This document shows positions 1,602 to 24,485 of a DNA stretch of 34,848 nucleotides, piece by piece (positions within the stretch are counted from its first letter, which is position 1; each line of letters opens with the position of its first letter). The position numbers and the translations under genes were made by a program. Source of the stretch: an uncultured Sphingomonas sp. (lineage in GTDB: Bacteria; Pseudomonadota; Alphaproteobacteria; Sphingomonadales; Sphingomonadaceae); contig NZ_CADCWA010000004.1 in assembly GCF_902806285.1 (NCBI RefSeq), positions 1 to 34,848 on the forward strand. Direction: 5' to 3'. The notes below the pieces were generated by a model. The model had not been told where the DNA came from, ran no database searches, and saw nothing but the letters and a program-made list of their open reading frames with translations.

Positions 1602-1941
1602 TCAGCCTCCAGACGACTAGTAAGCCAACCGGAGGCGGCCGGGTGTCGTTCCGGAGCGGGACAGGGATGCCGCCAACTTGCGCAGCTTAGGATCGTGTCG
1701 CGCAAGATTGGTCCACCGCATGTTGACCGGCCCCAGGGCGGCCGACTGCACTCGCCGCCTCGTCCTGCGCTGAGGTGTAACCATAGCCGCGGCGGCAGCG
1801 AACGACAGGACACCCGCAGCAAACGGCGAAGGACATTTGCAATGTTTGCGGGCGGTACAGCCACCGTCGCCAGCGCAGGTGGCGAAGAACCGCCCTATCG
1901 ATCGGGGTGGCTGGATGACGAACGCCGCTAGGGGAGTGACA
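1602..1941. other. Intergenic region between divergent sigma factor and cytochrome b operon
   Basis: About 340 bases without a supported gene. It holds the ribosome site of the minus-strand sigma factor at its left end and the SigF-like promoter at 1777-1802 for the plus-strand operon. The rest of the leader, about 130 bases from the promoter to ATG 1942, shows no structure I can name. Confidence 0.6.
1777..1802 (+). promoter_or_regulatory. SigF-like ECF promoter for the cytochrome b / molybdoenzyme / Moco operon
   Basis: GTAACC at 1777-1782, exactly 16 bases, then CGAA at 1799-1802. The same two boxes with the same spacing recur before other genes of the window. It points at ATG 1942, about 140 bases on. 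Confidence 0.8.
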
Positions 1942-2799
1942 ATGGCTGCAACCACGCTGACCGCTCCCGTTGCGGACCCGGCTCCGGAACGAGGACGACT
2001 CGTCAAGCGCCATAGGATCGCGACCCGCATCTGGCATTGGGTCAGCGCGCTGGCGGTGTTCGTGCTGCTGATGAGCGGGCTGATGATCTTCAACGCCCAC
2101 CCCGCGCTCTACTGGGGGAAGTATGGGGCCAACGCCGATACGCCGTGGCTGATGATCAACTCGGACGCGAACGGCGGTTTCGTCAGGTTGGCGGGCTACC
2201 GGATCCCGACCGACGGCGTCCTCGGGCGCTGGGCGGATGGCGACGGGAACATGCATACCAACGCCTTCCCGGGCTGGGCTACGATCCCCTCCTACTACAG
2301 CCTGTCGGGCGGCCGGCGCTGGCATTTCGCCTTCGCCTGGGTGCTGAGCCTGTCGCTCATCGCCTTTCTGCTCACCAGTCTGTTCAACCGGCACATCAAG
2401 CGCGACCTGGCACCGACCTTGGAAGAGCTCAAGCCGGCGCATATTGGCCAGGACATCGCGGACCATGCCCGGCTGCGCTTTCCCAAGGGCGAGGCGGCGC
2501 TGCGCTACAACATCCTCCAGAAGCTGAGCTACGTCGGCGTGATCTTCGTGCTGCTGCCGGTGATGATCCTGACCGGCCTCGCCATGTCCCCCGCCATGAA
2601 CGCGGCCTGGCCGTGGCTTACCGAGATCTTCGCCGGCCGGGCTTCGGCACGATCGATCCACTTCATCGCGGCTGCGCTGCTCGCCCTGTTCATCCTCGTG
2701 CACCTGATCATGGTGGTGCTGGCCGGGCCCTTCAACGAGATCCGATCCATGATCACCGGCCGCTTCCGCATCGTTCCTCAACCGGGGGACAAGGCATGA
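1942..2799 (+). CDS. Cytochrome b561-like membrane subunit of a molybdoenzyme
   Basis: A 285-residue integral membrane protein of the di-haem cytochrome b family (PF01292-like). Predicted helices lie near residues 34-52, 128-148, 195-215 and 238-262. Candidate haem ligands are His32 (IWHW), His128 (RRWHF), His240 and His254 (ILVHL). It should pass quinol electrons to the periplasmic molybdoenzyme encoded next, whose ATG overlaps this stop. I chose ATG 1942 because GGGGAG lies five bases before it; in-frame starts at 1837 and 1915 would add a poor N-terminus. It is not MsrQ, which belongs to a different six-helix family. The SigF-like promoter lies upstream. Confidence 0.88.
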   Translation: MAATTLTAPVADPAPERGRLVKRHRIATRIWHWVSALAVFVLLMSGLMIFNAHPALYWGKYGANADTPWLMINSDANGGFVRLAGYRIPTDGVLGRWADGDGNMHTNAFPGWATIPSYYSLSGGRRWHFAFAWVLSLSLIAFLLTSLFNRHIKRDLAPTLEELKPAHIGQDIADHARLRFPKGEAALRYNILQKLSYVGVIFVLLPVMILTGLAMSPAMNAAWPWLTEIFAGRASARSIHFIAAALLALFILVHLIMVVLAGPFNEIRSMITGRFRIVPQPGDKA

Positions 2800-3551
2800 T
2801 CAGCCGGCGCAAGATGCTCGCTTCGCTCGGGGCTGGGGCAGGGGGGCTGGTGCTCTCGGGCTGCGATCGGCTCGACGGGAGCGAGACCTTCCGCGGCGTC
2901 CTTCGGTCGAGTGAAGGCCTGACCATGCGGGCGCAGCGGCTGATCAGCGATCGCACCGCGCTGGCTCGCGAGTTCAGCCCGTCCGACATGTCGCCGGTGT
3001 TCCGCTCGAACGGCACGGCCATGCCCGGCACCAGCGCCTACCAGGCCCACCTGGCCAGCGGCTTCCGCGACTGGCGCCTGCGGGTCGACGGCCTCGTCCG
3101 CCGGCCACTGTCGCTGTCGCTGCAGCAGATCAGGGCGATGCCGGTACGTACGCAGATCACCCGGCACGATTGCGTCGAAGGCTGGAGCGCGATCGGCAAG
3201 TGGCATGGCGTGCCGCTCAAGCTGCTGCTGGACGCGGCCGGCCTGCGCCAGGAAGCTCGCTACCTCGTCTTCCACTGCGCGGACCTGTACGGCACCAACC
3301 CATATTACGAGAGCATCGACCTGATCGACGGCTTCCATCCCCAGACCATTCTCGCCTGGGGCATGAACGACGCCATGTTGCCCGTGCCCAACGGCGCGCC
3401 GCTGCGCCTCCGGGTCGAGCGACAGCTCGGCTACAAGCACGCGAAATATGTAGAACGCGTCGAGGCCGTCGCGACGCTCGCGGGAATTCAGGGCGGCAAG
3501 GGGGGGCTTTGGGAGGATAACAGCGACTACGAATGGTACGCGGGCATTTGA
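2796..3551 (+). CDS. Tat-exported molybdopterin-dependent oxidoreductase, sulfite oxidase / YedY-like, predicted lipoprotein
   Basis: A 251-residue protein with the sulfite oxidase fold. The N-terminus carries a twin-arginine motif (SRRKML) followed by the lipobox LSGC with Cys23, so it is probably exported folded and lipid-anchored on the periplasmic side. Cys126 in TRHDCVEGW is the expected molybdenum ligand. The family uses Mo-MPT without an added nucleotide. The gene overlaps the cytochrome b by four bases, an electron-delivery arrangement like that of MsrPQ/YedYZ but with a different membrane partner. By analogy it may reduce oxidised methionine or other S-/N-oxides in the envelope; the substrate is inference. 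The moa genes follow after 67 bases. Confidence 0.9.
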   Translation: MISRRKMLASLGAGAGGLVLSGCDRLDGSETFRGVLRSSEGLTMRAQRLISDRTALAREFSPSDMSPVFRSNGTAMPGTSAYQAHLASGFRDWRLRVDGLVRRPLSLSLQQIRAMPVRTQITRHDCVEGWSAIGKWHGVPLKLLLDAAGLRQEARYLVFHCADLYGTNPYYESIDLIDGFHPQTILAWGMNDAMLPVPNGAPLRLRVERQLGYKHAKYVERVEAVATLAGIQGGKGGLWEDNSDYEWYAGI

Positions 3552-3618
3552 TCCGAATTGAAGCCTCCTTGTCGCGGTACGCGGCGTTTCACGTGGGCGT
3601 TGGGCGGGCCTTGGCGGC

Positions 3619-4599
3619 ATGATCGATCCGTTCGGCCGCTCGATCTCGTACCTGCGCCTGTCGGTGACCGACCGCTGCGACCTGCGCTGCACCTATTGCA
3701 TGCCGGAGCGGATGCGTTTTCTTCCACGGGCCGACCTGCTGACGCTGGAGGAGCTCGACGAACTCGCCAGCGCCTTCATCGCCAAGGGCGTGACCAAGCT
3801 CCGCCTGACCGGCGGCGAGCCGCTGGTGCGCAAGGACATCATGCGGTTGATCGACGGGCTGTCCAGGCACCTGCGTTCGGGTGCGCTCGAGGAGCTGACC
3901 TTGACGACCAACGGCACGCGGTTGGCGCAGCACGCCGCCGACCTGGCGCGGGCAGGGGTGAAGCGGGTGAACGTCTCGCTCGATAGCCTGAACCCTGAGA
4001 CATACGCCCGGATAACCCGCGGCGGGCGGCTGGCCGAGGTGATCGCCGGGATCGATGCGGCGATCGCGGCCGGGATCCGGGTCAAGCTCAACAGCGTCGC
4101 CTTGCTGCACGACAACCTCATGGAACTGCCGGACATCGCCGCCTGGGCGCACGATCGCGGCGCCGACTTCACGGTGATCGAGGTCATGCCGCTCGGCTCG
4201 GTGGAGGCCGACCGCATCGACCAGTATGTGCCGTTGACGGAGGTTCGCCGCCGCTTCGAGCAGCGCTGGACGCTCACCGACGTTGCCCTGCGGACCGGTG
4301 GCCCCGCCCGTTACGCCCGTACCTCCGATGGCGGGCTGATCGGCTTCATCACGCCGCTCAGCCACAACTTCTGCGGTTCCTGCAACCGGGTCCGCGTGAC
4401 CTGCACCGGCAAGCTGTTCCTGTGTCTCGGCAACGCCCACGAGGCCGACCTGGGAGCGTTGCTGCGGAGCGGCGACCAGGAGGCGCTGAGCCGGGGCATC
4501 GATCGCGCGATCGGGATCAAGCCGGAACGGCACCATTTCGCGATCCGGGAGCGCGGCGCGGTGGCGCTCGACCGCCATATGTCGGTGACCGGCGGATGA
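3619..4599 (+). CDS. moaA: GTP 3',8-cyclase MoaA
   Basis: A 326-residue radical SAM enzyme that starts molybdopterin synthesis by converting GTP to 3',8-cyclo-7,8-dihydro-GTP. The N-terminal cluster is CDLRCTYC (Cys20, Cys24, Cys27) and the C-terminal 4Fe-4S ligands are Cys252, Cys255 and Cys269. LTGGEPL fits SAM binding, and the protein ends in the Gly-Gly tail that MoaA needs. Length is normal. It is the first of six Moco genes packed with overlaps behind the molybdoenzyme. The stop overlaps the start of moaD by four bases. Confidence 0.97.
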
Positions 4600-4838
4600 G
4601 GGTACGGCTGCTTTGCTTTGGGCGTCTGACGGAAGCACGGAGCGAGCGCGAAGCCACGATCGAGCTTGCCGACGGCGTCGACGACACAGCGGCTTTGCGG
4701 GCCTGGCTGGCACGGGACCACCCCGGCTTTGCGCAGCCGTCGGTACGCATCGCCCTCAACGGAGAAGTCGTCACCGGCGACCGGCCGCTGGTCGACGGCG
4801 ACGAAGTGGCGTTCATGCCTCCGGTGAGCGGCGGATGA
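4596..4838 (+). CDS. moaD: Molybdopterin synthase small subunit MoaD
   Basis: An 80-residue ubiquitin-like sulfur carrier ending in SGG; the terminal glycine is adenylated and thiocarboxylated to feed the dithiolene synthesis by MoaD-MoaE. The ATG overlaps the stop of moaA and its own stop overlaps the moaE start, both by four bases, so translation is probably coupled. No moeB-type activating enzyme is in the window, so activation must come from elsewhere. Confidence 0.94.
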
Positions 4839-5284
4839 TCAGGGTCCAGGCCGAGCCGTTCCAGCCCGATGCCGAACTCGCCGACTTGCTGGCACGGGCG
4901 CCCGGGGCCGGCGCCGCGGTGTTCTTCGTGGGGCAGGTCCGCGGCGAGGCGGGGGCGGTCAGCACCCTGACGCTCGACCACTATCCCGCCTTCACCGAAC
5001 GCGGGATTTCCACCATCGTGGCGGCCGGCGAGGAGCGCTTCGGCTGGAGCGCCGTGTCGGTGATCCATCGCCATGGGCGTCTGGAGGCGGGGGAAGCGAT
5101 CGTCTTCGTCGGAGTTGCGGCGAGCCACCGCCGGGCCGCCTTCGAAGCGGCGGACTATCTGATGGATCGGCTCAAGACCGAGGCTCCGTTCTGGAAGCGC
5201 GAGGACGGCCCGGCCGGAAACCGGTGGATCGAGCCGAGCGAGGCTGACCGCGCCGACCGAGCGCGCTGGGGAGACGGGATTTGA
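4835..5284 (+). CDS. moaE: Molybdopterin synthase catalytic subunit MoaE
   Basis: A 149-residue protein that with MoaD converts cyclic pyranopterin monophosphate to molybdopterin. Typical stretches are VFFVGQVRG near residue 30, HRHGRLEAGE in the middle and the active-site part LKTEAPFWKRE with its two lysines. Length is standard. It overlaps moaD and moaB by four bases at each end. Confidence 0.95.
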   Translation: MIRVQAEPFQPDAELADLLARAPGAGAAVFFVGQVRGEAGAVSTLTLDHYPAFTERGISTIVAAGEERFGWSAVSVIHRHGRLEAGEAIVFVGVAASHRRAAFEAADYLMDRLKTEAPFWKREDGPAGNRWIEPSEADRADRARWGDGI

Positions 5285-5805
5285 TCGACGAGCAACGCAC
5301 CTTCACTCCGGTCCAGCTGGCCGTCCTCAGCGTGTCCGACACGCGGACGCTCGAAACCGACACCTCCGGCGCGACCCTGGCTGCGCGGATCGAAGCCGCC
5401 GGCCACCTGCTGGCCGACCGGAAGATCGTGAAGGACGACGTCGCGGCGATCGCCGCTGCGGTGCAGGCCTGGATCGACGATGAGGGCGTGGACGTGGTCA
5501 TCACCACCGGCGGCACCGGCTTCGCGACGCGGGACGTCACGCCGGAAGCGGTGCGCCCGCTATTGCAGAAGGAAATGGAGGGCTTCGCGGTGGTCTTCCA
5601 CACCGTCAGCCACCAATCGGTCGGCCTGTCGACGCTGCAGTCGCGCGCCTTTGCAGGCTTCGCGGACGGCACCTTCATTTTCTGCCTTCCCGGCTCCAAC
5701 GGTGCGGTGAAGGACGCGTGGGACAAGGTCATCTCGCCCCAGCTCGATTCACGGCAGCGGCCGTGCAACCTGGTCGAGCTGATGCCGCGGTTGCAGCGGT
5801 CCTGA
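5281..5805 (+). CDS. moaB: Molybdenum cofactor biosynthesis protein MoaB (molybdopterin adenylyltransferase type)
   Basis: A 174-residue MoaB/Mog fold protein. Family marks are LSVSDTR near residue 16, the nucleotide loop TTGGTGF near residue 77 and [13 protein letters not shown] near residue 137. MogA-type members adenylylate molybdopterin before molybdate insertion by MoeA; MoaB may fill that role here because no mogA is present. The start is TTG at 5281, overlapping the moaE stop by four bases, consistent with coupled translation. Confidence 0.92.
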
Positions 5806-6281
5806 TGGCGGACCTCACCCACTTCGACGAGACCGGCCGAGCGCGCATGGTCGACGTTTCGGCCAAGGCGGAAACCGTTCGGGTCGCGGTCGCGCGTGGG
5901 GCTGTGCGGATGCCTCCTGAGACACTCGCAACCGTCGAAGCCGGCGGCGTGGCCAAGGGCGACGTCGCCGCGGTCGCGGAGCTTGCCGGGATCATGGGGG
6001 CCAAGAAGACCAGCGACCTGGTTCCGCTGTGCCATCCGCTGAGCCTGTCATCCGTCCGGGTCCGGATCGAGCCCGACCGGCAGCTCTCCGGTTTGCGCGT
6101 CGAGGCGGAGGTCAAGACGACTGGGCAGACCGGCGTCGAGATGGAGGCCCTGACCGCGGTGTCGGTGGCGTGCCTGACGATCTACGACATGTTGAAGTCG
6201 GGTGCGCGGGACATGACGATCGGTCCCATCGAGCTTGTCCGGAAGAGCGGAGGCAAGTCGGGTGACTGGCGGCGCGACTGA
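5805..6281 (+). CDS. moaC: Cyclic pyranopterin monophosphate synthase MoaC
   Basis: A 158-residue enzyme for the second half of the first Moco step, turning the MoaA product into cyclic pyranopterin monophosphate. Three signature blocks are present: [34 protein letters not shown] and the C-terminal GGKSGDW. I chose ATG 5805, which shares one base with the moaB stop (TGATG); a longer frame from 5718 would run through the end of moaB. The 3' end overlaps moeA. Confidence 0.96.
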
Positions 6282-7509
6282 GCTGCTCGACCTGGCTGAC
6301 GCGCGGGCGCTTCTGCTGCGCGCGGTCGAGGCGACGCCGGGCGAGCGCGTGCCGCTTGCCCAGTGCAGCGGACGCATCCTCGCCGACGCGGTCATCGCCG
6401 AACGCAACCAGCCGCCCGAGGCGCTGTCGGCGATGGACGGCTATGCCATCCGCCTGGAAGATGCGGTCGCAGGCTCCACCCTGCAGGTCATCGGCACATC
6501 GCCTGCGGGCAAGCCCTTTCGCCGGCCGGTCAGGCGCAACCAGGCCGTCCAGATCGCCACCGGCGGCGTGGTGCCGCCCGGTGCCGACCATATCCTCATC
6601 CAGGAGAATGTGACGCGTGAGGGCAGCCGGCTGCGCGTCGGCCAGTGCAATCCGCAGGCCTACATTCGTCCAGCGGGAATGGACTTCGCCGCTGGCGAGG
6701 TGGTGCTGCGCGAAGGCGATGAACTGACGCCCGGGCGGCTTGCCTTGGCTGGTGCCGCCAACGCGGGCAGCCTGCTGGTGCGGCGCCGGCCCCGGGTAGC
6801 GATCATGCCGGGTGGCGACGAACTGCGTGAGCCTGGCGAGCCGCTCGGCGAAGGAGAGATCGTCAACTCGATCACCAGCGCGCTCGCAGCCCTGGTCGGG
6901 AATTGGGGCGGCACGCCGCTGCCGCAGCCGATCCTGCCCGACGAGCGCAACGCGGCCGAAGCGCAGCTCCGCTCCAGCGAGGGCCTTGGCGCGGAGGTCA
7001 TCGTCACGCTGGGCGGCGCCTCCGTCGGCGAACGCGACTGCCTGCGGCCGGCGTTCAACGACCTGGGCGCGGACATCGTCTTCCACGGCATCGCCGTCGT
7101 TCCGGGCAAGCCGTGCTGGCACGCCCGCTTCGCGGACGGCCGCCTGGTGCTCGGCCTGCCGGGCAACCCATCCTCGGCGTTCGTGTGCGCGCACCTGCTG
7201 CTCAAGCCCTTGCTGTGGGCGCTGACGGGTCGTGATCCCGGAGAGGCCGTGCGCCCCATAGCTGCGAGGTTGACCCGACCACTGGCTGAGAACGGGCGGC
7301 GCGAAGCCTATCTGCGCGCAAAAGTCGAAGTGGACGGAGAAGGCTGCCTCGCCGTCACGCCCTGGCCGAACCAGGACAGCGGCATGGTTACTCCGCTCGC
7401 GTCCGTCAACAGCCTGCTGGTGAGACCCATAGCCGCCCCGGTCGCCTCTACGGGCGAGATGGCGCAAGTTCTTGTGATCGGCCGGATAAGCGCGAGCTCC
7501 AAACAGTAG
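6262..7509 (+). CDS. moeA: Molybdopterin molybdotransferase MoeA
   Basis: About 415 residues of MoeA, which inserts molybdate into adenylylated molybdopterin. Recognisable blocks are SAMDGYA near residue 60, [12 protein letters not shown] near residue 100, [12 protein letters not shown] in the MogA-like domain and [12 protein letters not shown], followed by the C-terminal domain IV. I chose GTG 6262, with GGAGG nine bases upstream; a TTG at 6235 in the same frame is possible. It overlaps moaC by 20 bases and closes the operon. No mobA follows, which fits a sulfite-oxidase-family client using Mo-MPT. Confidence 0.94.
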
Positions 7510-7612: not shown

Positions 7613-7696
7613 CGTGGCTGTGCGAACGCTTCCTTGTTCCATTTTCAGCCGCTGGGACCCGCGTTGTGCGCTCCCGGTCCCTGTAGGAGAGATGAG

Positions 7697-8584
7697 ATGG
7701 CCGCCACCACCCCATTGATATCTCCCGCGGCGTTGGCCAGCGACCTGTCGGCGCCGCCCGTGCTGAGCAGCGAAACCTCCGGGTGGAAAGGGGCGGAGGT
7801 CCGGTTGTGGCAGGGCATCGACCCGCACAGCTACCCGCCGCTCGATCATCATTGCCTGACGCTGCACCTCGGCGACCCGCGGCGCATCATCAGGCGGGGG
7901 GAAGGCGGCGAGTTGCAGGCGGATATCCGTCCTGGCGCCGTCTCGTTCACGCCGATCGGCGCGGTGTACGAGTGGGAGACCACCGGTCCGGTCGACTATG
8001 CCGAACTGTACCTGTCTGCCGAATTCATCCGCAAGATCAACGCCGAGGTGTTCGACCGGGACAGCACCGGCCTTGCCCTGGAGGATCGCCTGGGGGTGCA
8101 GGAACCGCTGATCGAAGCGACCTTCAACGGATTGATCGAGGAGATGTCGGAAATGAAACCCGACTCGCGCCTGTACCTCGACTCCCTTCTCCTGACCCTC
8201 TCGGTTCGTCTGGTCAGGCTGTGCGGGAGCGTGCCCGACGAATTCGGGCAGCGGCGCCCCACGCTCGCGCCGGCCCGGCTGCGGCGTGTTCTCGAATATA
8301 TCGAAACGAACTTGTCCCTGGACATCGGGGTCGCCGATCTGGCCGCCGTCGCACGCATGAGCCCGTTCCACTTCAGCCGTGCGTTCACGCTGGCAACCGG
8401 CGGCTCGCCCTACTCGCACCTCATCAAGCGGCGGCTTGCCCGGGCCAAGACGCTTCTGGGTGAAGCGGACACGGACATACCCGCGATTGCGCTCGAATGC
8501 GGGTTCCGGACCGAGGGCCAATTCTGCCGCATGTTCAAGCGCAGTGTCGGCACGACTCCGCGGCGTTACCGGCGCGAGGCCTGA
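7697..8584 (+). CDS. AraC-family transcriptional regulator (first of a paralogous pair)
   Basis: 295 residues with an N-terminal sensory half that I cannot assign to a ligand and a C-terminal AraC double helix-turn-helix from about residue 190 (LRRVLEYIETNLSLDIGVAD, then FHFSRAF and the second helix pair ending FCRMFKRSVGTTPRRYR). ATG 7697 has GGAG eight bases upstream; a longer frame from 7634 is not favoured. The regulator at 14669-15562 shares both halves, for example the DHH motif near residue 50 and the LEDRLG stretch, so the two are duplicates with possibly different signals. A strong palindromic site lies before this gene. Targets are unknown; nearby candidates are DUF427 and the nitrilase. 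Confidence 0.9.
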   Translation: MAATTPLISPAALASDLSAPPVLSSETSGWKGAEVRLWQGIDPHSYPPLDHHCLTLHLGDPRRIIRRGEGGELQADIRPGAVSFTPIGAVYEWETTGPVDYAELYLSAEFIRKINAEVFDRDSTGLALEDRLGVQEPLIEATFNGLIEEMSEMKPDSRLYLDSLLLTLSVRLVRLCGSVPDEFGQRRPTLAPARLRRVLEYIETNLSLDIGVADLAAVARMSPFHFSRAFTLATGGSPYSHLIKRRLARAKTLLGEADTDIPAIALECGFRTEGQFCRMFKRSVGTTPRRYRREA

Positions 8585-11689: not shown

Positions 11690-12220
11690 ATGAGCACCAA
11701 CGCTATGCCGCTTGTCGAGGGAGCCTCCACCCGCCAGCTCGACTCTACCGCCCTCGGCACGACGGTGTCGCGCGTGGGAAGCTGGCTGGTCACCGCCGCG
11801 CTGGCGATCATCTTCCTGTGGTTCGGAAGCATGAAGTTCGTGCCTTTCCAGGCGGAAGGCCTGGCCGGGATCATCTCCAACAATCCCCTGATCTCGTGGC
11901 TCTATACCCTGTTCGGAGTCCAGGGCGGCGCGAGGTTCCTGGGGGTTTTCGAACTTGCCACCGGAGCCTTGCTCGCTGCCCGGGTGATTGATCCTCGGGC
12001 TTCGGCGCTTGGTGCCGCTATGGGCGCCTGGGCCTTCCTTCTCACCATCAGCTGCATGTTCACCACCCCCGGCGTGATCGCGGCGGGTCACGAGGGGACG
12101 TTGAATCTGTCGACCGCTCCGGGCGCCTTCCTCCTGAAGGACGTCGGCCTGTTTGCGGCGTGCATCTGGCTGCTGGGCCAATCGCTGAATGAAGCTAGCA
12201 CCCGTCGGCGGTTGCGCTGA
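11690..12220 (+). CDS. DUF417 / YkgB family inner-membrane protein (RclC-like)
   Basis: 176 residues with four predicted membrane helices, the first at about 29-50 (VGSWLV...FLWFG). The DUF417 pattern is clear: KFVPFQAEGLAGIISNNP, SWLYTLFGVQG, FLGVFELATG, LLTISCMFTTPGV and FLLKDVGLF. The E. coli relative RclC belongs to the reactive chlorine resistance operon. This does not prove the same role here, but it fits neighbours such as OsmC and the methionine sulfoxide reductases. It may share a transcript with the following hydrolase, 113 bases away. Confidence 0.88.
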   Translation: MSTNAMPLVEGASTRQLDSTALGTTVSRVGSWLVTAALAIIFLWFGSMKFVPFQAEGLAGIISNNPLISWLYTLFGVQGGARFLGVFELATGALLAARVIDPRASALGAAMGAWAFLLTISCMFTTPGVIAAGHEGTLNLSTAPGAFLLKDVGLFAACIWLLGQSLNEASTRRRLR

Positions 12221-14668: not shown

Positions 14669-15562
14669 GTGACTGCCCTCAGCGCAGCGCCATACCCTGT
14701 GTCACCACTGTCGTGGGACGGTATCTCCGGTCCTCCGATCATGAGCAACGAGGGTGGAGACTGGACCACCCCGCTGATCCGCTGGTGGTCCAACGTAGAC
14801 CCGCACATCCTGCAGCCGGCCCTGGATCACCATTACCTGACCATGCACTTGGGCGGCCCGAAGCGGGTCGAGCGGCGAGGCGAGGGGAGCCTCCAGGCCG
14901 TCGATATCGAGTCCGGCGCCTTGTCGATCATTCCGTCAGGCGCCGCGTTCGAGTGGCACACGCTTGGACCGATCGAGTTCGCGCACATCTACTTGCCGCC
15001 CGGCGGGCTGAAGCGGGTCGGCCTTGAAGAACTCGATCGGGACGGCCGCTCGGTCTCGCTTGAGGATCGGCTCGGCATGCGCGATCCGCTGCTCCAGACC
15101 CTCTTCCTGGAGATCCTCGGTGAGCTGATGGGACAGGGCAAGGGATCGCGTCTCTATACCGAGACCTTGCTGCACTCGCTGCAACTCCGGCTGATCAAGT
15201 CGTACGCCAACGCGGCCCCGGCGCGGGTGCGGGAGCGGCATTCCATTGCGCCGCTGCGGTTGCGCCGTGTGCTGGATTACATGGAGGCGAACCTTGAGGA
15301 AGACATCACGTTGGCGGATCTGGCGTCGGCTGCCGGAGCTAGCCCGTTTCACTTCAGCCGTTCCTTCACGACCGCGATGGGCATGCCCCCCTATCGGTAC
15401 CTGCTGACCCGGCGGATCGAGCGCGCCAAGACGTTGCTCGCCGCGGGCGAGGGATCGATGGGAGACGTCGCCCGGCAGTGCGGATTCAATAGCGGCGCGC
15501 AGTTCTCGCGGATGTTCAAGCGGGTCACCGGAAGCTCGCCGCTGAGATATCGGCAGCGATAG
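14669..15562 (+). CDS. AraC-family transcriptional regulator (second of a paralogous pair)
   Basis: About 297 residues, matching the length and plan of the regulator at 7697-8584: a sensory N-terminal half (DHHYLTMHLGGP near residue 50, SLEDRLGMRDPLLQ near residue 140) and a C-terminal double helix-turn-helix (LRRVLDYMEANLEEDITLAD, FHFSRSF, FSRMFKRVTGSSPLRYR). GTG 14669 has GGAG eight bases before it; TTG 14642 inside the kinase end is an alternative. The 13-base gap to the kinase implies one transcript, so the kinase may act on its expression or activity; that is inference. Confidence 0.9.
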   Translation: MTALSAAPYPVSPLSWDGISGPPIMSNEGGDWTTPLIRWWSNVDPHILQPALDHHYLTMHLGGPKRVERRGEGSLQAVDIESGALSIIPSGAAFEWHTLGPIEFAHIYLPPGGLKRVGLEELDRDGRSVSLEDRLGMRDPLLQTLFLEILGELMGQGKGSRLYTETLLHSLQLRLIKSYANAAPARVRERHSIAPLRLRRVLDYMEANLEEDITLADLASAAGASPFHFSRSFTTAMGMPPYRYLLTRRIERAKTLLAAGEGSMGDVARQCGFNSGAQFSRMFKRVTGSSPLRYRQR

Positions 15563-15626: not shown

Positions 15627-15652
15627 GTAACCGTGGATGGTTCGTCGACGAA
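15627..15652 (+). promoter_or_regulatory. SigF-like ECF promoter for the DUF1223 gene
   Basis: GTAACC at 15627-15632, 16 bases, CGAA at 15649-15652. A transcript would begin near 15660, about 30 bases before ATG 15691. This supports the 15691 start over the in-frame 15637, which would lie inside the promoter. Confidence 0.85.
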
Positions 15653-15690: not shown

Positions 15691-16452
15691 ATGCCCAACC
15701 TGTCGATCATCACATCTTCAACGATCGCGCTCGCGGGCGCGGCATTGCTGGCGGGCTGCGGACAAGCCCCTGCATCCGAGGCTGCCGCAGCACCGCTGCA
15801 GCCGCAGTTGAAGGTCGCCGGCGCTTCGGCAACGCATCCCGTGGTCGTTGAACTCTTTCAAAGCCAAGGCTGTTCGTCTTGCCCGCCGGCGAACGCGAAC
15901 GTCAACGCCATCGCGGGCCGCCCGGACGTGCTCGCGCTCTCGTTCGCGGTCACCTACTGGGACCAGCTTGGCTGGAAGGACACCTTCGACTCGCCCAAGT
16001 TCACCGCGCGCCAGTGGGACTATGCCAATCATGCCGGCCGCCCCCAGGTGGCGACCCCGCAGGTCATCCTGAATGGCGGACCGACCATCATCGGCCATGA
16101 CCGCCGACAGCTCGACGCAGCGATGGCCAAGGCAGGACCGGCGCGCGGAGGGCCGGCGGTCTCGATTGCCGGAGCAACGCTGAACGTCGCAGCACAGCCG
16201 GGCGGCAAGCCGTCGACGGTGTGGCTCGTGCGATACGATCCTAAGTCACGTGAGGTGGCGATCCGGGCCGGCGAGAACAACGGCCGCACACTGCCGCACC
16301 GGAATATCGTGGTGGACCTGGTGGATCTCGGGTCGTGGCAAGGGAAGCCCTCGACCTTCCAGCTCCCTGCCGCAAGTGAACCGGGACTGCTGACGGCAGT
16401 ACTGGTGCAACAGGGCAAGGGCGGTCCGATCACTTCCGCGGCGAAGGTTTAG
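15691..16452 (+). CDS. DUF1223 thioredoxin-fold lipoprotein
   Basis: 253 residues. The N-terminus is a lipoprotein signal with lipobox ALLAGC (Cys23). The DUF1223 core follows: VVELFQSQGCSSCPPAN with the redox pair Cys61-Ser-Ser-Cys64, then SFAVTYWDQLGWKDTF and GRPQVATPQVILNG. The fold resembles thioredoxin, so the CxxC may handle disulfides or sulfenic acids in the envelope; the true activity of the family is not established. ATG 15691 has AGGAG upstream and a SigF-like promoter at a suitable distance. It stands alone. Confidence 0.9.
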   Translation: MPNLSIITSSTIALAGAALLAGCGQAPASEAAAAPLQPQLKVAGASATHPVVVELFQSQGCSSCPPANANVNAIAGRPDVLALSFAVTYWDQLGWKDTFDSPKFTARQWDYANHAGRPQVATPQVILNGGPTIIGHDRRQLDAAMAKAGPARGGPAVSIAGATLNVAAQPGGKPSTVWLVRYDPKSREVAIRAGENNGRTLPHRNIVVDLVDLGSWQGKPSTFQLPAASEPGLLTAVLVQQGKGGPITSAAKV

Positions 16453-18798: not shown

Positions 18799-18824
18799 GT
18801 AACCCGAAGACGCGGCGCTGCGAA
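18799..18824 (+). promoter_or_regulatory. SigF-like ECF promoter for the split-barrel flavoprotein / GlcG-like pair
   Basis: GTAACC at 18799-18804, 16 bases, CGAA at 18821-18824. It starts 20 bases after the antiporter stop and points at ATG 18948, leaving a leader of about 115 bases. Confidence 0.82.
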
Positions 18825-18947: not shown

Positions 18948-19601
18948 ATGGCCTACGACTTCCTTGACCGTCTCACCACCCCGGGGGTTGAAGCCGCCCG
19001 GGTGGCGAATGGCTCCGGTGGGCTATGGGAAAACCTCCAGGGGGACCATTCGTCCGCCTGCTTCAGCGACCGGGAGAAGGCGTTCATCGCGGACCGCGAC
19101 AGCTTCTATCTAGCGAGCGTTTCGCAGACTGGTTGGCCGTACATCCAGCATCGTGGCGGTCCGCCCGGTTTCCTGCGGGTGCTGGATCCGGAGACGCTTG
19201 GGTTCGCCGACTATCGTGGGAACCGCCAATATCTCAGCCTCGGCAACATCGCCGACGACGATCGGGTCGCGCTGTTCCTGATGGACTATCCCCACCGTCG
19301 CCGGCTCAAGGTCCTGGCGCACATGACGGCGCACGACCTCGCCACCGCACTCGACCTCGCCCGGCACCTGACAACGCCTGGCTATCGTGGGGTCGCCGAG
19401 CGCGCCTTTACCTTACGGCTGGAAGCCTTTGACTGGAACTGCCCCCAGCACATCACCCCCAGGTTCACGGCGGCTGAGGTCGAGGCGGGAACGGCTCCGT
19501 TGCGCGAACGGCTCGCCGCACTGGAAATCGAGAACGAGCGGCTGCGCGACGCCATGACGAACACGACCGTTGCGCCCGTCCAAGAAGGAAACCGGAGATG
19601 A
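18948..19601 (+). CDS. Pyridoxamine 5'-phosphate oxidase-family split-barrel flavoprotein
   Basis: 217 residues. The fold is suggested by DRDSFYLASVSQTGWPYIQHRGGPPGF-type sequence around residues 45-72 and by the following YRGNRQYLSLGNIADDDRV stretch. Members bind FMN, F420 or haem and reduce small molecules. A short C-terminal coiled coil (about 185-205, rich in Leu, Glu and Arg) may mediate pairing. ATG 18948 has AAGGAG seven bases upstream. It overlaps the secreted GlcG-like gene by four bases and has a SigF-like promoter upstream. Substrate unknown. Confidence 0.88.
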   Translation: MAYDFLDRLTTPGVEAARVANGSGGLWENLQGDHSSACFSDREKAFIADRDSFYLASVSQTGWPYIQHRGGPPGFLRVLDPETLGFADYRGNRQYLSLGNIADDDRVALFLMDYPHRRRLKVLAHMTAHDLATALDLARHLTTPGYRGVAERAFTLRLEAFDWNCPQHITPRFTAAEVEAGTAPLRERLAALEIENERLRDAMTNTTVAPVQEGNRR

Positions 19602-20131
19602 AGAAACCGTTGCTCACCCTGAGCGCAGCCGCCGCCACGGCCTTGACCAACGCGCCCGCGCAGGCCCAGGTCGCCACATCGGGCTATAGCCTGCCCTTGG
19701 CGCTGGCGATGGAGGCCGCCGCAGAGGCGGTGCGGGTTTGCGAGGGCAACGGCTACGCCGTGTCTGCCTCGATCGTCGAGCCTTCCGGGCTGATCAAGGT
19801 CCAGGCCAAGGGCGATCATTCCACGGTCCACACCCGCGACTCCAGCTTCCGCAAGGCTTATACGGTGGTGACCCTGGGGCCGATTTTCCGCTTCGATACC
19901 ACAAGCGCTTTCGCCGAACTCGCGTCCAAGAACCCGGCCGGACCCGCGCTGTCCTCGCTGCCGGACATCCTGCCGCTGGCGGGCGGCGTCGCGATCAAGG
20001 CGGGCAACGAGATCGTCGCGGCGATCGGGGTCGGAGGTGCCCCGGGCGGCGACAAGGACGAGGTCTGCGCTCACGCCGGGGCCGCGAAGATCCAGGCTCG
20101 CGTCACCGCCGCCCAGAAGCGGCCAGCCTGA
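19598..20131 (+). CDS. GlcG/HbpS-family protein, secreted
   Basis: 177 residues with a Sec signal peptide (MKK start, hydrophobic stretch, AQA cleavage near residue 23) and a single GlcG/HbpS domain: LALAMEAAAEAVRVCEGNGY, SFRKAYTVVT, LPLAGGVAIKAG and AIGVGGAPGGDKDEVCA. HbpS of Streptomyces binds haem and takes part in redox sensing, but many members are uncharacterised. Overlap with the flavoprotein gene implies one transcript from the SigF-like promoter. Confidence 0.9.
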   Translation: MKKPLLTLSAAAATALTNAPAQAQVATSGYSLPLALAMEAAAEAVRVCEGNGYAVSASIVEPSGLIKVQAKGDHSTVHTRDSSFRKAYTVVTLGPIFRFDTTSAFAELASKNPAGPALSSLPDILPLAGGVAIKAGNEIVAAIGVGGAPGGDKDEVCAHAGAAKIQARVTAAQKRPA

Positions 20132-20189: not shown

Positions 20190-21242
20190 TCAGCAGCAGC
20201 CGCCGCTCGCCTCCGGGGCCGTCGCCTTCGCACTGAACGGGCTCGACGTGCCGCACCCGGCGAACACACCGTAGTGACGACTGAAATCGCCAAAGAACTC
20301 GAAGTGGGCGGCAAAGCGCGTGTCGCGGAGCATCTTCCACGTATTCCCGCAAACCGGGAACAGCCGGCCGGCCTCGATCAGGTGATGACCGTCCAGTTCG
20401 AACACGCGCTCCGAACCGGGCACCGTTCCGAGGTAGCGTACGGCCTGGCCATAGTCTTCGCATTGCGGCTCCAGCCCCTCAAGCTTGAACAGGCGGTAGG
20501 TCGCCGAATGGAATGCGATTCCGTCAAGCCGCGCAGCGATCGCCGGATCGCCAATGCTCAACGGCCGGTCGGTGACTAGCCGCGGATCGGCGAAGCCCGC
20601 CTGCTTGGCGAGGCTGTCGAAGTCGCCCCAATAGAGCGCACCCGCCAGGCACTCGCCATGCAGGACCGGGTCGGAGAGCAGTGCTTCGGGCACGCGGCGG
20701 TCGGCATAGACATCAGAGAAGTAGAGCTCACCGCCAGGCTTGAGCAGCCGGTGGGCGGCGCGCAGAACCGCCAGCTTGTCGTGCACGAGATTGATGACGC
20801 AGTTGGAGACGATCACGTCGAAGCCTGCATCAGGCAGGCCGAGCGCCTGCAGATGCTCGATGTCGCCCTCGACGAACCGGACGTTGGAGTGGGCGTAGCC
20901 GAACCGCTCGCGGTGCCAGTCCAGGTGGCGGTTGGCGACGGAGAGCTGCTCGGCGGTCGCATCGACCCCGGTGACGCTGCCCGCCTCGCCGACGAGCTGT
21001 GCCAGCAGATAGGCGTCCTGTCCCGATCCGGAGCCGAGGTCGAGCACATGAGCGCCGGCGATTGCCTGCGGAACGACCAGCCCGCAGCCATAGTAACGCG
21101 AACGGACTTCCTCATGCACGTTGTTCAGGGCCGCCTGGATTGCTGGCGGCGGGGCGGCAGGGCTGCAGCACGCGTCGGTACGCAGGTCCTGTGAGCCGCT
21201 TAGGATCTCGCCATAATAATGCTGGCTGTTTTCGATGTTCAT
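20190..21242 (-). CDS. arsM: Arsenite S-adenosylmethionine methyltransferase ArsM
   Basis: 350 residues. The SAM site is VLDLGSGSGQDAYLL near residue 67. All three cysteines expected of As(III) methyltransferases are present: Cys53 (YYGCGLVVP), Cys148 (SNCVINL) and Cys198 (HGECLAGALY). There are also vicinal pairs at 25-26 and at the very C-terminus. It methylates trivalent arsenic with SAM and thiols. It lies 40 bases behind the aquaporin gene on the same strand, and both appear to be read from the SigF-like promoter at 22050-22075. No arsR or arsenate reductase gene is nearby. Confidence 0.93.
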   Translation of the reverse strand: MNIENSQHYYGEILSGSQDLRTDACCSPAAPPPAIQAALNNVHEEVRSRYYGCGLVVPQAIAGAHVLDLGSGSGQDAYLLAQLVGEAGSVTGVDATAEQLSVANRHLDWHRERFGYAHSNVRFVEGDIEHLQALGLPDAGFDVIVSNCVINLVHDKLAVLRAAHRLLKPGGELYFSDVYADRRVPEALLSDPVLHGECLAGALYWGDFDSLAKQAGFADPRLVTDRPLSIGDPAIAARLDGIAFHSATYRLFKLEGLEPQCEDYGQAVRYLGTVPGSERVFELDGHHLIEAGRLFPVCGNTWKMLRDTRFAAHFEFFGDFSRHYGVFAGCGTSSPFSAKATAPEASGGCC

Positions 21243-21282: not shown

Positions 21283-22017
21283 TTAGACCGGTGCCTTGGG
21301 GAAGAGGTACGAGCCTAGCGCCGACCCGGCGAGCGCGCCGGCCAGCTGGGCCAGCACGAACCCGGGCACATCGGTGGGGGCAATGCCGGCGAAGCTGTTG
21401 GTCAAAGCGCGCGCAGCGGTGATCGCCGGGTTGGCGAAGCTGCTGGATGAGGTGAACCAGTAGGCCGCGGAGATGTACAGAGCGACCGCGGGCGCGATCC
21501 AGGATGGCTTGTGCCGCGCCGTCCCGACGATCGTCAGGATGAGGCCGAAGGTCCCGACGAACTCGCCTAGCCACTGCCCCGGACCGGTCCGCGCCTTGGC
21601 GGATAGTTCCAGCAGCGGCATCTCGAACATCGCGTGCACGACCAGAATGCCGGCGATGCCAGCGATCAGCTGCGTGAGGGCGAACAGGCCGGCCTCGCGC
21701 CAGGACTGGTCGCCTCGCAGCGCCGCGACCATGCTGACTGCCGGATTCATCTGCGCGCCCGATACCGGCGCCAGCATGGTGATAAGCACAAACAGCATCG
21801 CACCGGTCGCGGCCATGTTGGCCAGCAGCGCCAGCGCCACGTTGCCGCCCGCCAGCCGTTCGGCCATGACGCCCGACCCGACCACGGCGGCGAACAGCAG
21901 GAAAGATCCCGTCGCTTCCGCTGCGGCCCGTCGGCCGAGCGGCGCAAGCGTCATGAGGGCCGGCTCGCCGGAGCGCGGCACGCGTCTAGCTGGGCCTGCG
22001 ATATGGACGCTACGCAT
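21283..22017 (-). CDS. MIP-family aquaporin/aquaglyceroporin, probably AqpS-like
   Basis: 244 residues with six predicted helices and two half-helix NPA motifs, GAQMNPAVS near residue 91 and SFANPAITAAR near residue 198. Channels of this family pass water, glycerol or arsenite; next to arsM an arsenite or methylarsenical role is likely but inferred. ATG 22017 has GGGGA upstream and lies about 26 bases after the predicted transcript start; ATG 21954 is a shorter alternative. It is divergent from doxX. Confidence 0.92.
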   Translation of the reverse strand: MRSVHIAGPARRVPRSGEPALMTLAPLGRRAAAEATGSFLLFAAVVGSGVMAERLAGGNVALALLANMAATGAMLFVLITMLAPVSGAQMNPAVSMVAALRGDQSWREAGLFALTQLIAGIAGILVVHAMFEMPLLELSAKARTGPGQWLGEFVGTFGLILTIVGTARHKPSWIAPAVALYISAAYWFTSSSSFANPAITAARALTNSFAGIAPTDVPGFVLAQLAGALAGSALGSYLFPKAPV

Positions 22018-22049
22018 GGTCGATGATCCCCAAGGGTCGTTGCAAGTGC

Positions 22050-22075
22050 TTCGGCCGCATGGCGGGTGAAGTTAC
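22050..22075 (-). promoter_or_regulatory. SigF-like ECF promoter for aquaporin-arsM
   Basis: On the minus strand: GTAACT (22075-22070), 16 bases, CGAA (22053-22050). The predicted start near 22043 leaves a short leader to ATG 22017. Confidence 0.85.
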
Positions 22076-22144: not shown

Positions 22145-22169
22145 GTAACTTTTCCAGACGCCGCGCGAA
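22145..22169 (+). promoter_or_regulatory. SigF-like ECF promoter for doxX, spacing one base short
   Basis: GTAACT at 22145-22150, 15 bases, CGAA at 22166-22169. It points at ATG 22204, about 27 bases after the predicted start. It is divergent from the aquaporin promoter 70 bases away. Confidence 0.65.
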
Positions 22170-22203
22170 ACGCCAGCAACATCCGGCAGACAGGAGTTCA
22201 GGC

Positions 22204-22695
22204 ATGTTGATTGCGGGCGATACGGCAGTGACCGCATCCGGCACGATGGAGAGTGGCGCTGGGCAGGCGGCTTCGCTGCTGTTGTTGCGGATCGGCACTG
22301 GGCTGCTCCTCGTCCTGTGGGGTTCGCTTCGGGTGCTTGCGCCCGCAACGGGACCTGGTCTGGCCAACAAATATTATGGCGGCCTGCTGGACCTGACGGT
22401 GGTACAGAGGGCCTTTGGAGCCGCTGAAGTAATCCTTGGCATGCTGGTCGTGCTGGGATTGTTCCGGCGCTTCGCTTACCCGGCACAGGCGCTTATCCTG
22501 GTCCTTGGAGCGACAGCCTTGTGGCGCTACCTGCTCGATCCCATGGGGTTGTACCTGCTCGACAAGGAAAGCAGTCAGATCCTCTTTTTCCCCTCGATCA
22601 CGGTCGCCGCGGCGACCTTGGTCCTGCTGGCATTCCGCCAGGCCGACCGCTGGTCGCTCGATAGCAGGCTGGCTGACCGGAGGGGCGCCAGGTGA
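22204..22695 (+). CDS. DoxX-like inner-membrane protein
   Basis: 163 residues with four predicted membrane helices and the DoxX-type pattern: LLLLRIGTGLLLVLWG, the AFGAAEVILGMLVVLGLFRRFAY stretch split around residues 62-84, and a last helix near 125-145. DoxX proteins are linked to thiol and oxidative stress. AGGAG lies seven bases before ATG 22204. It has a SigF-like promoter and may be cotranscribed with the sigma-NrsF pair, giving an autoregulatory loop, though 355 bases separate them. Confidence 0.85.
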   Translation: MLIAGDTAVTASGTMESGAGQAASLLLLRIGTGLLLVLWGSLRVLAPATGPGLANKYYGGLLDLTVVQRAFGAAEVILGMLVVLGLFRRFAYPAQALILVLGATALWRYLLDPMGLYLLDKESSQILFFPSITVAAATLVLLAFRQADRWSLDSRLADRRGAR

Positions 22696-23050
22696 CCAAC
22701 AGTCGCCCCGGCAAGCTCTGCCTCCTTGCTGTTACCGCTGCAGGGGCGGATCGGGTATTGGCCCACTAGCTGCCAGTCCGCTTACGGCCATGTCGGGGCG
22801 CGGCGCTCCCGCACTGGCTCTACGCGAACGTTCGGCCGCTTCTGTCTCGCTGCCAGGTGCCCCGCTGCGGCAATGGCCTGCACCTCGGGTGGAAAGGTCG
22901 CGTTCACGCGCGTCGCGCCCGCACCCTGTCAAGAGCGCCAACAGCGGCAATCGCTCAGCCGAGAAAGAGTCGCTTCGTCTTATCCTGCTTGATGCCGTCC
23001 AAGACCTTGTTGACCTGTCGCTGTTTCGATTCGCGCCGCTTTCAGGTTAC
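22696..23050. other. Gap between doxX and the sigma factor gene
   Basis: About 355 bases. The plus-strand frame of the sigma factor is open throughout but has no family-like sequence before ATG 23051. On the minus strand, 23040-22954 encodes a Lys/Arg-rich helical tail that ends in a stop and has no start codon, possibly a gene remnant. A minus-strand frame from TTG 22950 looks unconvincing. The backward SigF-like motif lies at the right end. Confidence 0.4.
23025..23050 (-). promoter_or_regulatory. SigF-like motif pointing backward from the sigma factor start
   Basis: On the minus strand: GTAACC (23050-23045), 16 bases, CGAA (23028-23025). The -35 box touches the ATG of the sigma gene. It would drive a transcript away from it, where no convincing gene exists. 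Confidence 0.5.
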
Positions 23051-23665
23051 ATGGCTGCTCGCTTGGAGGTCGACCTGCTCAAGGATGGAAAGCCGCTGAC
23101 CGTTGCCAGGGCCGCCATCAATGCCGATTGGAGTGCGCTCCTCACGGCGGCGCAGGCGGGCGACGCCGACGCGTATCGCCGCTTCCTCGGCGCAGTCGTG
23201 CCGTTTGTGCGGACGGTCGCCCGCCGGCGCTGCTGGTCCGAGGACCAGGCCGAGGACGTGGTGCAGGACGTCCTGCTGACCATTCACCGCGTCCGGCACA
23301 CCTACGAGCCCGGGCGACCGGTCAAGCCTTGGCTCACCGCGATCACTGTTCGCAGGGCAATCGATGCGACCCGCAAGCGTGGCCGTGTCAGCGCGCGGGA
23401 AGTGTTCGATGAGCATGCCTATGAAACCTTTGCCGACCCGGGAGCGAACCAGGAGGTGGACAAGGACGCGCCGAAGATACTGGCCGGAATGACGGCGGGT
23501 CTTACGCGCGGGCAGAAGGAAGCGATCGACTTGGTCAAGGTCAAAGAGATGTCGCTGGCCGAAGCCTCCGCGTTTTCCGGCCAGACAGTCGCCTCGCTCA
23601 AGGTCAACATTCATCGCGCGATCAAGAAGATGCGGCTCGATTTACTGGGGAAGTCATCCGAATGA
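23051..23665 (+). CDS. sigF: ECF-type RNA polymerase sigma factor, SigF-like
   Basis: 204 residues with region 2 at about 25-105 (AEDVVQDVLLTIHRVRHTY, GRPVKPWLTAITVRRAID) and region 4 at about 145-195 (LTRGQKEAIDLVKVKEMS...LKVNIHRAIKKM). Its last four bases overlap the start of an NrsF-type anti-sigma gene, the arrangement of Caulobacter sigF-nrsF. I chose ATG 23051, where the family homology and the paralogue begin; the ribosome site is weak (CAGG). It is the best candidate to read the GTAAC(C/T)-N16-CGAA promoters of the window. Confidence 0.93.
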   Translation: MAARLEVDLLKDGKPLTVARAAINADWSALLTAAQAGDADAYRRFLGAVVPFVRTVARRRCWSEDQAEDVVQDVLLTIHRVRHTYEPGRPVKPWLTAITVRRAIDATRKRGRVSAREVFDEHAYETFADPGANQEVDKDAPKILAGMTAGLTRGQKEAIDLVKVKEMSLAEASAFSGQTVASLKVNIHRAIKKMRLDLLGKSSE

Positions 23666-24336
23666 CGCGCCTGCCGCATACCCTGCTGATCGAAGAGCTG
23701 ACTGCGGATGTACGGCCGGTCAGGCCGCTCGCCTCACCGTTGCGGCGAGCCGCCTCGACGCTCATGGCGCTCGCTCTGGTCGCGACACTGGCAGTGCTGG
23801 TCGCCTCGAACCTTACCCAATTCCGGAGCCTGCATGCGGGGCGCGAGGTGCTGCTGATGCTGGAGATGGCGGCGATGCTCGCCACCGGGGCCTTGGCGAT
23901 CACCGGGGCGTTCTTCGCATCCGTACCTGGTCGCGCGCGGGGGTGGCTTCTGGCGCCTTTGCCGTTCTTCGCCGCATGGCTGCTGTTCAGCGGTACGGGT
24001 TGCTACAACCTGATGATCTCCAATGGCGGCACAGGCTCTGGGCAACCCTCGGGAGATAGTACGCACTGCCTCCTATTCATCCTCGGGGTCAGTGCGCTCC
24101 TCGCGCCGGCGGTGATCTGGCGGCTTTCGCGGGCAGCTCCGATCGACCCGCTACCCGTAGCGCTGCTTGGCGGCCTCGGAGTAGCGGCGCTCAGCGCGTT
24201 CCTGCTGCAGTTCTTCCATCCCTTCGCCGTGACCTTCCTGGACCTGGGCGTGCACCTCGCCGCCATCCTGCTGGTGGTGGGGGTCACGGGCCTGCTGAAC
24301 CGGCGAGCGCTCATCGGCAGGAAGTTACCCGTTTGA
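23662..24336 (+). CDS. nrsF: NrsF / DUF1109-type membrane anti-sigma factor
   Basis: 224 residues with a cytosolic N-terminus of about 30 residues and six predicted helices (about 35-50, 63-86, 95-112, 137-155, 165-185, 195-213). Two cysteines, Cys114 (SGTGCYNL) and Cys136 (DSTHCLLF), are candidates for the redox or metal switch described for Caulobacter NrsF, where paired cysteines control release of SigF. Start overlap with the sigma gene ensures balanced translation. Family assignment rests on the partner, topology and the DSTHC block. Confidence 0.88.
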   Translation: MTRLPHTLLIEELTADVRPVRPLASPLRRAASTLMALALVATLAVLVASNLTQFRSLHAGREVLLMLEMAAMLATGALAITGAFFASVPGRARGWLLAPLPFFAAWLLFSGTGCYNLMISNGGTGSGQPSGDSTHCLLFILGVSALLAPAVIWRLSRAAPIDPLPVALLGGLGVAALSAFLLQFFHPFAVTFLDLGVHLAAILLVVGVTGLLNRRALIGRKLPV

Positions 24337-24459
24337 CGCTTGCCACCGTGCGTGATCGGGGCGAATTCCAAGCCTTCCGAAACATCAACGTTCAACTCCC
24401 ATGCAGTGGCACAAGCCCCCGAGCGGTGGGCCGCCGTGACCTGAGGTCCGACAGCTCAT

Positions 24460-24485
24460 GTAACTTGAGGCGGGGCATCGGCGAA
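24460..24485 (+). promoter_or_regulatory. SigF-like ECF promoter for the glycoside hydrolase gene
   Basis: GTAACT at 24460-24465, 16 bases, CGAA at 24482-24485. It lies after the nrsF stop and about 80 bases before GTG 24568. Confidence 0.82.

Follow-up and report, generated by a model that had tools for sequence, protein, structure and literature searches.

The stretch of DNA analysed here (the window) is 34,848 nt long and constitutes the entire contig C4 of a metagenome-assembled genome (MAG) of an uncultured Sphingomonas sp., an assembly of 2.52 Mb in 203 contigs that is 87% complete. It carries two genes for SigF-type sigma factors of the extracytoplasmic function (ECF) class, one gene for the membrane anti-sigma factor NrsF and seven copies of a promoter-like box, GTAACY-N15/16-CGAA (Y, C or T; N15/16, a spacer of 15 or 16 nt). 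The region is very probably a local regulon of an ECF16-type SigF and its anti-sigma factor NrsF, with the boxes as predicted promoters. Its features are listed below; the names of the six molybdenum cofactor (Moco) genes are taken from Pfam families.

978-1601, minus strand: sigF1, second SigF-type ECF sigma factor (Sigma70_r2 and r4_2, both above cut-off)
1777-1802, plus strand: box, N16, 112 nt upstream of the chosen cytochrome b start and diverging from sigF1; T at -1
1915-2799, plus strand: b-type cytochrome (Pfam, PF01292)
2796-3551, plus strand: sulfite-oxidase-fold molybdoenzyme, MsrP-like (PF00174)
3619-7509, plus strand: Moco genes moaA, ThiS-type moaD, moaE, a MoCF-domain gene (moaB/mog type), moaC and moeA (Pfam, each above cut-off)
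15627-15652, plus strand: box, N16, 38 nt upstream of the DUF1223 gene
15691-16452, plus strand: DUF1223 protein (PF06764) with a CxxC motif and, by eye, a signal peptide
18799-18824, plus strand: box, N16, 123 nt upstream of the PPOX-HbpS pair
18948-19601, plus strand: PPOX-type flavoprotein (PF01243; TIGR04025 under cut-off)
19598-20131, plus strand: HbpS-like protein (PF03928), called GlcG in an original prediction made for this region
20190-21242, minus strand: arsM-like methyltransferase, downstream of the aquaporin gene (arsenite methyltransferase model under cut-off)
21283-22017, minus strand: aquaporin-family channel (PF00230)
22050-22075, minus strand: box, N16, 32 nt upstream of the aquaporin gene
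22145-22169, plus strand: box, N15, 34 nt upstream of the DoxX-like gene
22204-22695, plus strand: DoxX-like membrane protein, so named in the original prediction
22919-23019, minus strand: relic of the 5' portion of an exported msrB, in which the ATG codons of the relative are lost and an in-frame stop follows
23025-23050, minus strand: orphan box, N16, adjoining the start of sigF2 and directed away from that gene; no intact gene behind it
23051-23665, plus strand: sigF2, SigF-type ECF sigma factor (region 2 above cut-off; region 4, 25.1 bits against 25.7)
23662-24336, plus strand: nrsF, membrane anti-sigma factor (PF06532, 46 bits against a cut-off of 26.8)
24460-24485, plus strand: box, N16, 82 nt upstream of the family 1 glycosidase (GH1) gene
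24568-25869, plus strand: family 1 glycosidase (PF00232)

The existence of the boxes is confirmed: six exact copies with N16 and one with N15 were found, all where the original prediction had located them. Dinucleotide-shuffled windows contained the exact pattern 0.01 times on average, fewer than the chance expectation given in that prediction (~0.13), and none of 100 shuffles reached at least six copies; with spacers of 14-18 nt the mean rose to 0.23, and at least seven copies again occurred in 0/100. When one mismatch was allowed, we found ten N16 sites (four beyond the exact ones, shuffle mean 1.5) and no additional N15 site; as this tolerance adds little, the signal resides in the exact matches. 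All seven boxes are wholly intergenic in our gene models, in a window of which 15.1% is intergenic. Five of the six N16 copies (ahead of cytochrome b, DUF1223, PPOX, aquaporin and GH1) and the N15 copy (ahead of the DoxX-like gene) are oriented toward a gene, as had been claimed. The boxes agree with the consensus (T/C)GTAACc-N16-CGAA in the available portions of two published accounts (PMC8315932, PMC3420878). The base preceding GTAAC, which was not used in the search, is T or C at all seven window sites (five T), as compared with 6/12 sites elsewhere in the genome (one T).

Across the genome, 19 sites with N15-17 were found, 7 in the 35-kb window and 12 in the remaining 2.49 Mb. The density outside predicts 0.17 sites for the window (P ~7e-10 for the seven seen), a disparity in keeping with the original prediction, for which equal density elsewhere would have been fatal. 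One off-window site (L011) stands upstream of an exported-looking msrB and another (L014, N17) precedes a peptidase-like gene; six (L008, L009, L010, L012, L015, L018) fall within gene models, and L013 falls between them. The site L019, ~105 nt before a DsbD-like gene (by eye), has A at -1 and was not counted.

The spacing of the boxes recurs in other genomes. In 27 loci with SigF relatives (396 kb), obtained from a scan of named genomes of sphingomonads, Rhodospirillales and others, the two half-boxes were separated by N15 in 8 cases, N16 in 18 and N17 in 2, with 0-3 occurrences at any of the remaining spacings between 8 and 25; in the reversed control the corresponding counts were 0, 0 and 1, and 0-4. 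In 19 additional family loci (L053 having been removed as a duplicate of L080) there were 27 N16 and 2 N15 boxes, against 0 and 1 in the reversed control. Clustering recurs as well: in genome G200, 13 of the 18 N15-16 boxes lie within a single 30-kb contig (G200:C67; L063, L175, L176), together with sigF and two NrsF copies. These boxes precede sigF, DUF1223, MsrA and the second NrsF, among others, and behind them are also nitrilase-like, thioredoxin-like, CcdA-like and bufferin-like proteins (named by eye; bufferin is a label for DUF2282-type proteins). G200 thus holds a second, denser clustered regulon of the family, and the clustering in the window is not unique.

We then asked how often boxes occur at homologues of the predicted targets, taking for each gene the 30 best-scoring of ~298 genomes, excluding the window's own copy from the counts and scoring NrsF as present in 144/298 genomes. 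The DUF1223 gene had an exact box between -300 and +130 of its extrapolated start in 12/29 homologues, in all 12 with an in-frame start codon no more than 60 nt after the box. These boxes were found in 12/24 homologues from genomes with NrsF and 0/5 without (p = 0.052, calculated by hand, with the window's own row excluded, 0.043 with it included). For cytochrome b, 7/29 homologues had a box between -900 and +30, in 6/14 cases with NrsF and 1/15 without (p = 0.031); relaxing the sixth base (GTAACN), a choice made post hoc, changed these to 10/14 and 1/15. Boxes preceded 3/29 PPOX homologues, all of one genus (g89), and 2/29 GH1 homologues. The latter are both fetched copies of 88% identity (a third such copy, G140:C1:1063332, is outside this count), as compared with 0/27 at no more than 74% identity, one of which (L234) lacks upstream DNA. 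In L074, the orthologue of the DoxX-like gene (69% identical) is the open reading frame directly behind sigF-nrsF. In 10/30 DUF1223 loci the cytochrome b gene follows closely, its start no more than 1.2 kb from that of DUF1223, and in six genomes (G140, G003, G072, G097, G028, G011) it lies within ~2 kb of sigF or nrsF. Given this recurrent proximity, the window looks like a spread-out form of a recurrent DUF1223-cytochrome b-molybdoenzyme-SigF-NrsF group.

The one box that had not fitted the original prediction, at 23025-23050, is best read as the leftover promoter of a decayed msrB. In the nearest relative (L073, 77%), a box stands at the same place, has its first 13 bases in common with the orphan box and points to an exported-looking msrB, behind which comes msrA; msrB also occupies the divergent box position in L075 and L078. 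The window sequence past the orphan box aligned to the 5' end of the L073 msrB with a score of 88, as compared with a maximum of 32 in 200 letter shuffles. This alignment, with the lost ATG codons and the in-frame stop, favours reading the misfit as a promoter relic. The genome does have an msrB frame of that exported type on contig C17, where it follows a box of its own and stays open up to the end of the contig; a search upstream of it for a sigma remnant found none. An apparent msrA at the C17 end proved to be a match of the relative's msrA to an overlapping frame of msrB, and no msrA is claimed there. A radical-SAM-like protein (by eye) holds the msrB position behind the divergent sigF box in L074 and L079.

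The original prediction had placed a sigma factor with NrsF among the boxes; this pair is sigF2-nrsF, and a second sigma gene, sigF1, had gone unmentioned. The two sigma factors are 61% identical over 174 aa and are the sole close copies in the assembly (the third match is at 28%, E 3e-7). A single NrsF was detected in the assembly, behind sigF2, with none adjoining sigF1. A 70-row tree, in which some loci appear twice, does not place sigF1 and sigF2 as sisters: the latter clusters with L073 and L074 (98/98), and a mostly sphingomonad set of 14 rows (support 100/99) contains the two of them. No box faces sigF1 or sigF2 from upstream, even with one mismatch allowed, and the autoregulation reported for related systems thus has no counterpart box here. 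This polarity is shared by a subclade of 23 loci (L073-L095; L096-L099 excluded; L092 starts ~33 bases before the gene), in which the box at the sigF start faces away in 18 cases, toward sigF in none and is absent in 5. Among 25 common-type family loci (L028-L052, which scored best out of the 114 family genomes with a match), 9 have a box facing toward sigF, 1 has it facing away and 15 have no box (GTAACN allowed; 18/0 vs 1/9, p = 1.4e-6). The divergent layout by itself is already known from rpoQ and gigPABT of Cupriavidus, as far as the accessible text describes them (PMC10304878).

The subclade differs in its anti-sigma factor as well. Caulobacter NrsF (residues 131 and 181) and Bradyrhizobium OsrA (129 and 179) are described, in the available sections of the original reports, as having two highly conserved cysteines, of which OsrA C179 is required for the response to H2O2 (PMC3511200, PMC3420878). 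The NrsF adjoining sigF2 matches PF06532, a match in which the two-cysteine feature plays no part, and its only cysteines are Cys114 and Cys136. We aligned it with the NrsFs picked automatically behind sigF in 34/46 loci. The first conserved cysteine is kept in 35/35 proteins. The second is kept in 12 and missing from 23; in 22 of these 23, window position 114 carries a cysteine in its stead, and L080 has neither. No aligned NrsF carries both the position-114 and the second published cysteine. The window protein lacks the second cysteine, as does every one of the 22 L073-L095 NrsFs in the alignment (the L084 protein was not picked). This cysteine is kept in L055, L056 and L097, in transmembrane segment 5 (TM5), although in the tree the sigma factors from these genomes are on the same side as those of the window, and the cysteine change is therefore not one clean split. 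An AlphaFold2 model of NrsF built from 20 sequences (mean predicted local distance difference test score 88, falling to ~64 over residues 121-130) comprises six long helices, with residue 114 near the end of helix 3, residue 136 near the start of helix 4 and residues 185-186, the position of the lost cysteine, at the end of helix 5. With the N-terminus inside, all three positions would be on the periplasmic side. Across 20 aligned NrsFs, H186 is conserved without exception. The model had no PDB match at E <= 0.001. In L084 (6163-7544), two extra tandem NrsF-like genes occur besides the sigF-adjacent NrsF, the first of them behind an N17 box.

Several elements of this arrangement are established in the accessible parts of the literature. 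Caulobacter crescentus SigF-NrsF (ECF16; PMC3511200, PMC8224329) has in common with the window the sigma-NrsF pair, the box GTAACC-N16-CGAA, a YedY/MsrP-type molybdoenzyme and DoxX. Its regulon, as described there, consists of three units with eight genes in all, DUF2282-DUF692-DUF2063 operons among them, and its NrsF uses C131 and C181, whereas the window's targets are clustered and include Moco genes, DUF1223, PPOX-HbpS and GH1, with two sigmas and with the second NrsF cysteine on predicted TM3. BcrS-AbcS of Brucella melitensis (ECF16) is reported, in the text available, to have the box (T/C)GTAAC-N17-CGAA (equal in spacing to the N16 boxes when counted from GTAAC), an MsrPQ-type output and induction by HOCl; bcrS-abcS is autoregulated via its own box, in contrast to sigF2, which no box faces (PMC8315932). 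Bradyrhizobium EcfF-OsrA shares the ECF16 class, a DUF1109 anti-sigma factor and methionine sulfoxide reductase and DsbD-like targets. According to the same partly available paper, however, its box has N14-15 with a looser -10, ecfF is autoregulated, and OsrA depends on the C179 that the window NrsF lacks (PMC3420878). In Cupriavidus metallidurans, the rpoQ-rsqA sigma-anti-sigma pair is divergent from gigPABT, an operon homologous to the Caulobacter SigF cluster; the accessible text shows no sigma-dependent promoter, and the targets differ (PMC10304878).

The box, the sigma-NrsF pair and the Msr and DoxX targets are thus already in print, at least in the portions of these papers available to us, and with the box and the link of SigF to MsrPQ and DoxX published, the novelty lies in membership, clustering, sensor and promoter polarity. 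What is new in this lineage is a box facing away from sigF (18/23 loci), and an NrsF with a cysteine on predicted TM3 in place of the published sensor cysteine (22/23 sequences). In the open-licence literature we found no report of a clustered regulon with such membership, of the NrsF cysteine change or of the polarity difference.

Computation shows the boxes with their clustering, spacing and partial conservation, both sigma genes, the single NrsF of the assembly, the relic and the cysteine change, and these observations support the SigF/NrsF interpretation first proposed for the window. From the characterised relatives we infer how such a system would operate. In unstressed cells SigF would be retained at the membrane by NrsF; a periplasmic oxidant or metal acting at Cys114/Cys136 would release it, and freed SigF would start transcription at T/C-GTAACY-N15/16-CGAA boxes. 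The predicted targets are the cytochrome b-molybdoenzyme-Moco operon, DUF1223, PPOX-HbpS, the DoxX-like gene, GH1 and perhaps aquaporin-arsM, with the exported msrB on another contig also under a SigF box. The output would comprise an MsrP-like enzyme, served by a membrane cytochrome of its own and by the Moco genes for its cofactor, plus an exported MsrB, repairing oxidised periplasmic methionine. Since an MsrP-like enzyme and an exported MsrB occur in the same regulon, we read its core output as probably the repair of oxidised methionine in periplasmic proteins.

The likeness to MsrPQ consists of a sulfite-oxidase-fold molybdoenzyme (best PDB match, 1xdq) adjacent to a membrane-bound b-type cytochrome and headed by a SigF box; the difference is that the cytochrome belongs to PF01292, which we take not to be the MsrQ type, and that the molybdoenzyme scores under the MsrP cut-off. 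Consequently the pair may work like MsrPQ, though by these matches neither protein qualifies as a member.

Several results weigh against this picture. The best NCBIfam match of the molybdoenzyme is MsrP at 89.8 bits, under the cut-off of 207, and no MsrQ model is among the NCBIfam matches of its PF01292 partner. Over the whole genome, the pattern is not over-represented (19 sites, 19 in the reversed control), so that the genome-wide enrichment scan once proposed as a check lends no support and the excess is local to the window contig; among nine other genomes, the box count exceeds the reversed control in one and fails to do so in eight. The association of DUF1223 boxes with NrsF is borderline, at about 0.05, and the strict one for cytochrome b is weak; one of the seven cytochrome b boxes is 471 nt distant, and in four of the seven no in-frame start occurs between the box and the aligned part. 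The four closest PPOX homologues are without a box. Of 12 aquaporin homologues (18 genomes searched), none has a box, and aquaporin-arsM is therefore assigned as a target from the window by itself. Finally, other targets or another NrsF may be absent from a MAG that is only 87% complete. The expectation that boxes would recur at orthologous sites was thus borne out at DUF1223, cytochrome b, PPOX and GH1, aquaporin being the exception. Of the original list of targets, DUF1223, cytochrome b, the nearest GH1 and one PPOX lineage are conserved, and aquaporin-arsM is unsupported in homologues.

These counts also bear on which boxes are in use. It is quite conceivable, if on balance doubtful, that only the boxes of cytochrome b, DUF1223, GH1, the DoxX-like gene and PPOX work, and that the aquaporin and relic boxes no longer drive a product. 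The missing boxes at aquaporin homologues and the missing gene behind the relic point that way, but both boxes are exact matches with T or C at -1, and a box that has lost its gene could still yield RNA toward the DoxX-like gene.

A different function for the same promoters is rather unlikely, yet it is the main rival to methionine repair: the boxes would be SigF promoters, with the regulon serving copper or metal buffering (bufferin-type operons, arsM, aquaporin) and methionine-sulfoxide repair as a side branch. Bufferin-like and/or DUF692-like genes lie behind the divergent box (by eye) in non-sphingomonad alphaproteobacterial loci of the subclade (L084, L086, L089, L090, L094), several common-type sphingomonad loci also have bufferin-like genes behind a box, and Caulobacter SigF is reported, in the text available, to be induced by Cu, with a Cu-sensitive sigF mutant (PMC8224329). 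However, none of the 30 Pfam-scanned window proteins matched DUF2282, DUF692 or DUF2063, the aquaporin box is not conserved, and msrB holds the divergent place in three of the eight loci L073-L080 (L073, L075, L078).

It is improbable that sigF1 and sigF2 use different promoters, the boxes belonging to one of them only. Their separate places in the tree and the position of NrsF beside sigF2 alone would suit such a division, but by eye the alignment shows closely similar promoter-reading regions in the two, and each gene adjoins a box facing away from it; we infer that sigF1 reads the same boxes as sigF2. That the repeats are chance or a mobile repeat rather than promoters is extremely improbable: although the genome-wide count equals its reversed control, the shuffle mean is 0.01, spacer sequences differ among sites, unlike copies of a single repeat, and both the spacing peak in other genomes and the local density in the window speak against it.

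Other genes of the window were noted alongside the regulon. The DoxX-like protein itself had no Pfam or NCBIfam match. A membrane protein at 11690-12220, with no exact SigF box upstream, has as its sole NCBIfam match RclC, of reactive chlorine resistance (60.7 bits against a cut-off of 275); AraC-family regulators lie nearby at 7694-8584 and 14741-15562, which together suggests a reactive-chlorine theme, and a similar gene (43%) occurs in the G200 cluster. A nitrilase-like gene is also present in the window. Another msrB-msrA pair (27971-28932) has neither signal peptides (by eye) nor a SigF box; cytoplasmic methionine repair thus appears to be regulated otherwise than by the SigF box. No exact box stands upstream of the window's other molybdopterin-binding oxidoreductase, a second and smaller one with an FAD/NAD reductase behind it (30041-31470), and two adjacent genes of the small multidrug resistance family lie on the minus strand at 25907-26742.

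Taken as SigF promoters, the seven boxes around two sigF copies apparently form a switchboard for the repair of oxidised envelope proteins. More tentatively, the lineage may represent a second class of NrsF sensor, in which the invariant TM4 cysteine would be paired with a cysteine in TM3 rather than TM5 and, with the invariant H186 of TM5, might form a periplasmic Cys2His redox or metal site. Its promoter would be inverted, so that SigF, instead of activating itself, would drive a divergent repair or metal-buffering operon whose -35 abuts sigF; here two such sigmas and one NrsF would control a local periplasmic methionine-repair regulon. The inducers reported in different species are metals, H2O2 and HOCl, and the signal of NrsF is unsettled in the available parts of the accounts cited above. 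A natural lineage with a moved sensor cysteine would allow a direct test of the sensing residue and of the signal sensed. The clustered boxes would serve as a ready reporter set. The boxes would also tie DUF1223, the PPOX-HbpS pair and this GH1, proteins of unknown function, to envelope repair.

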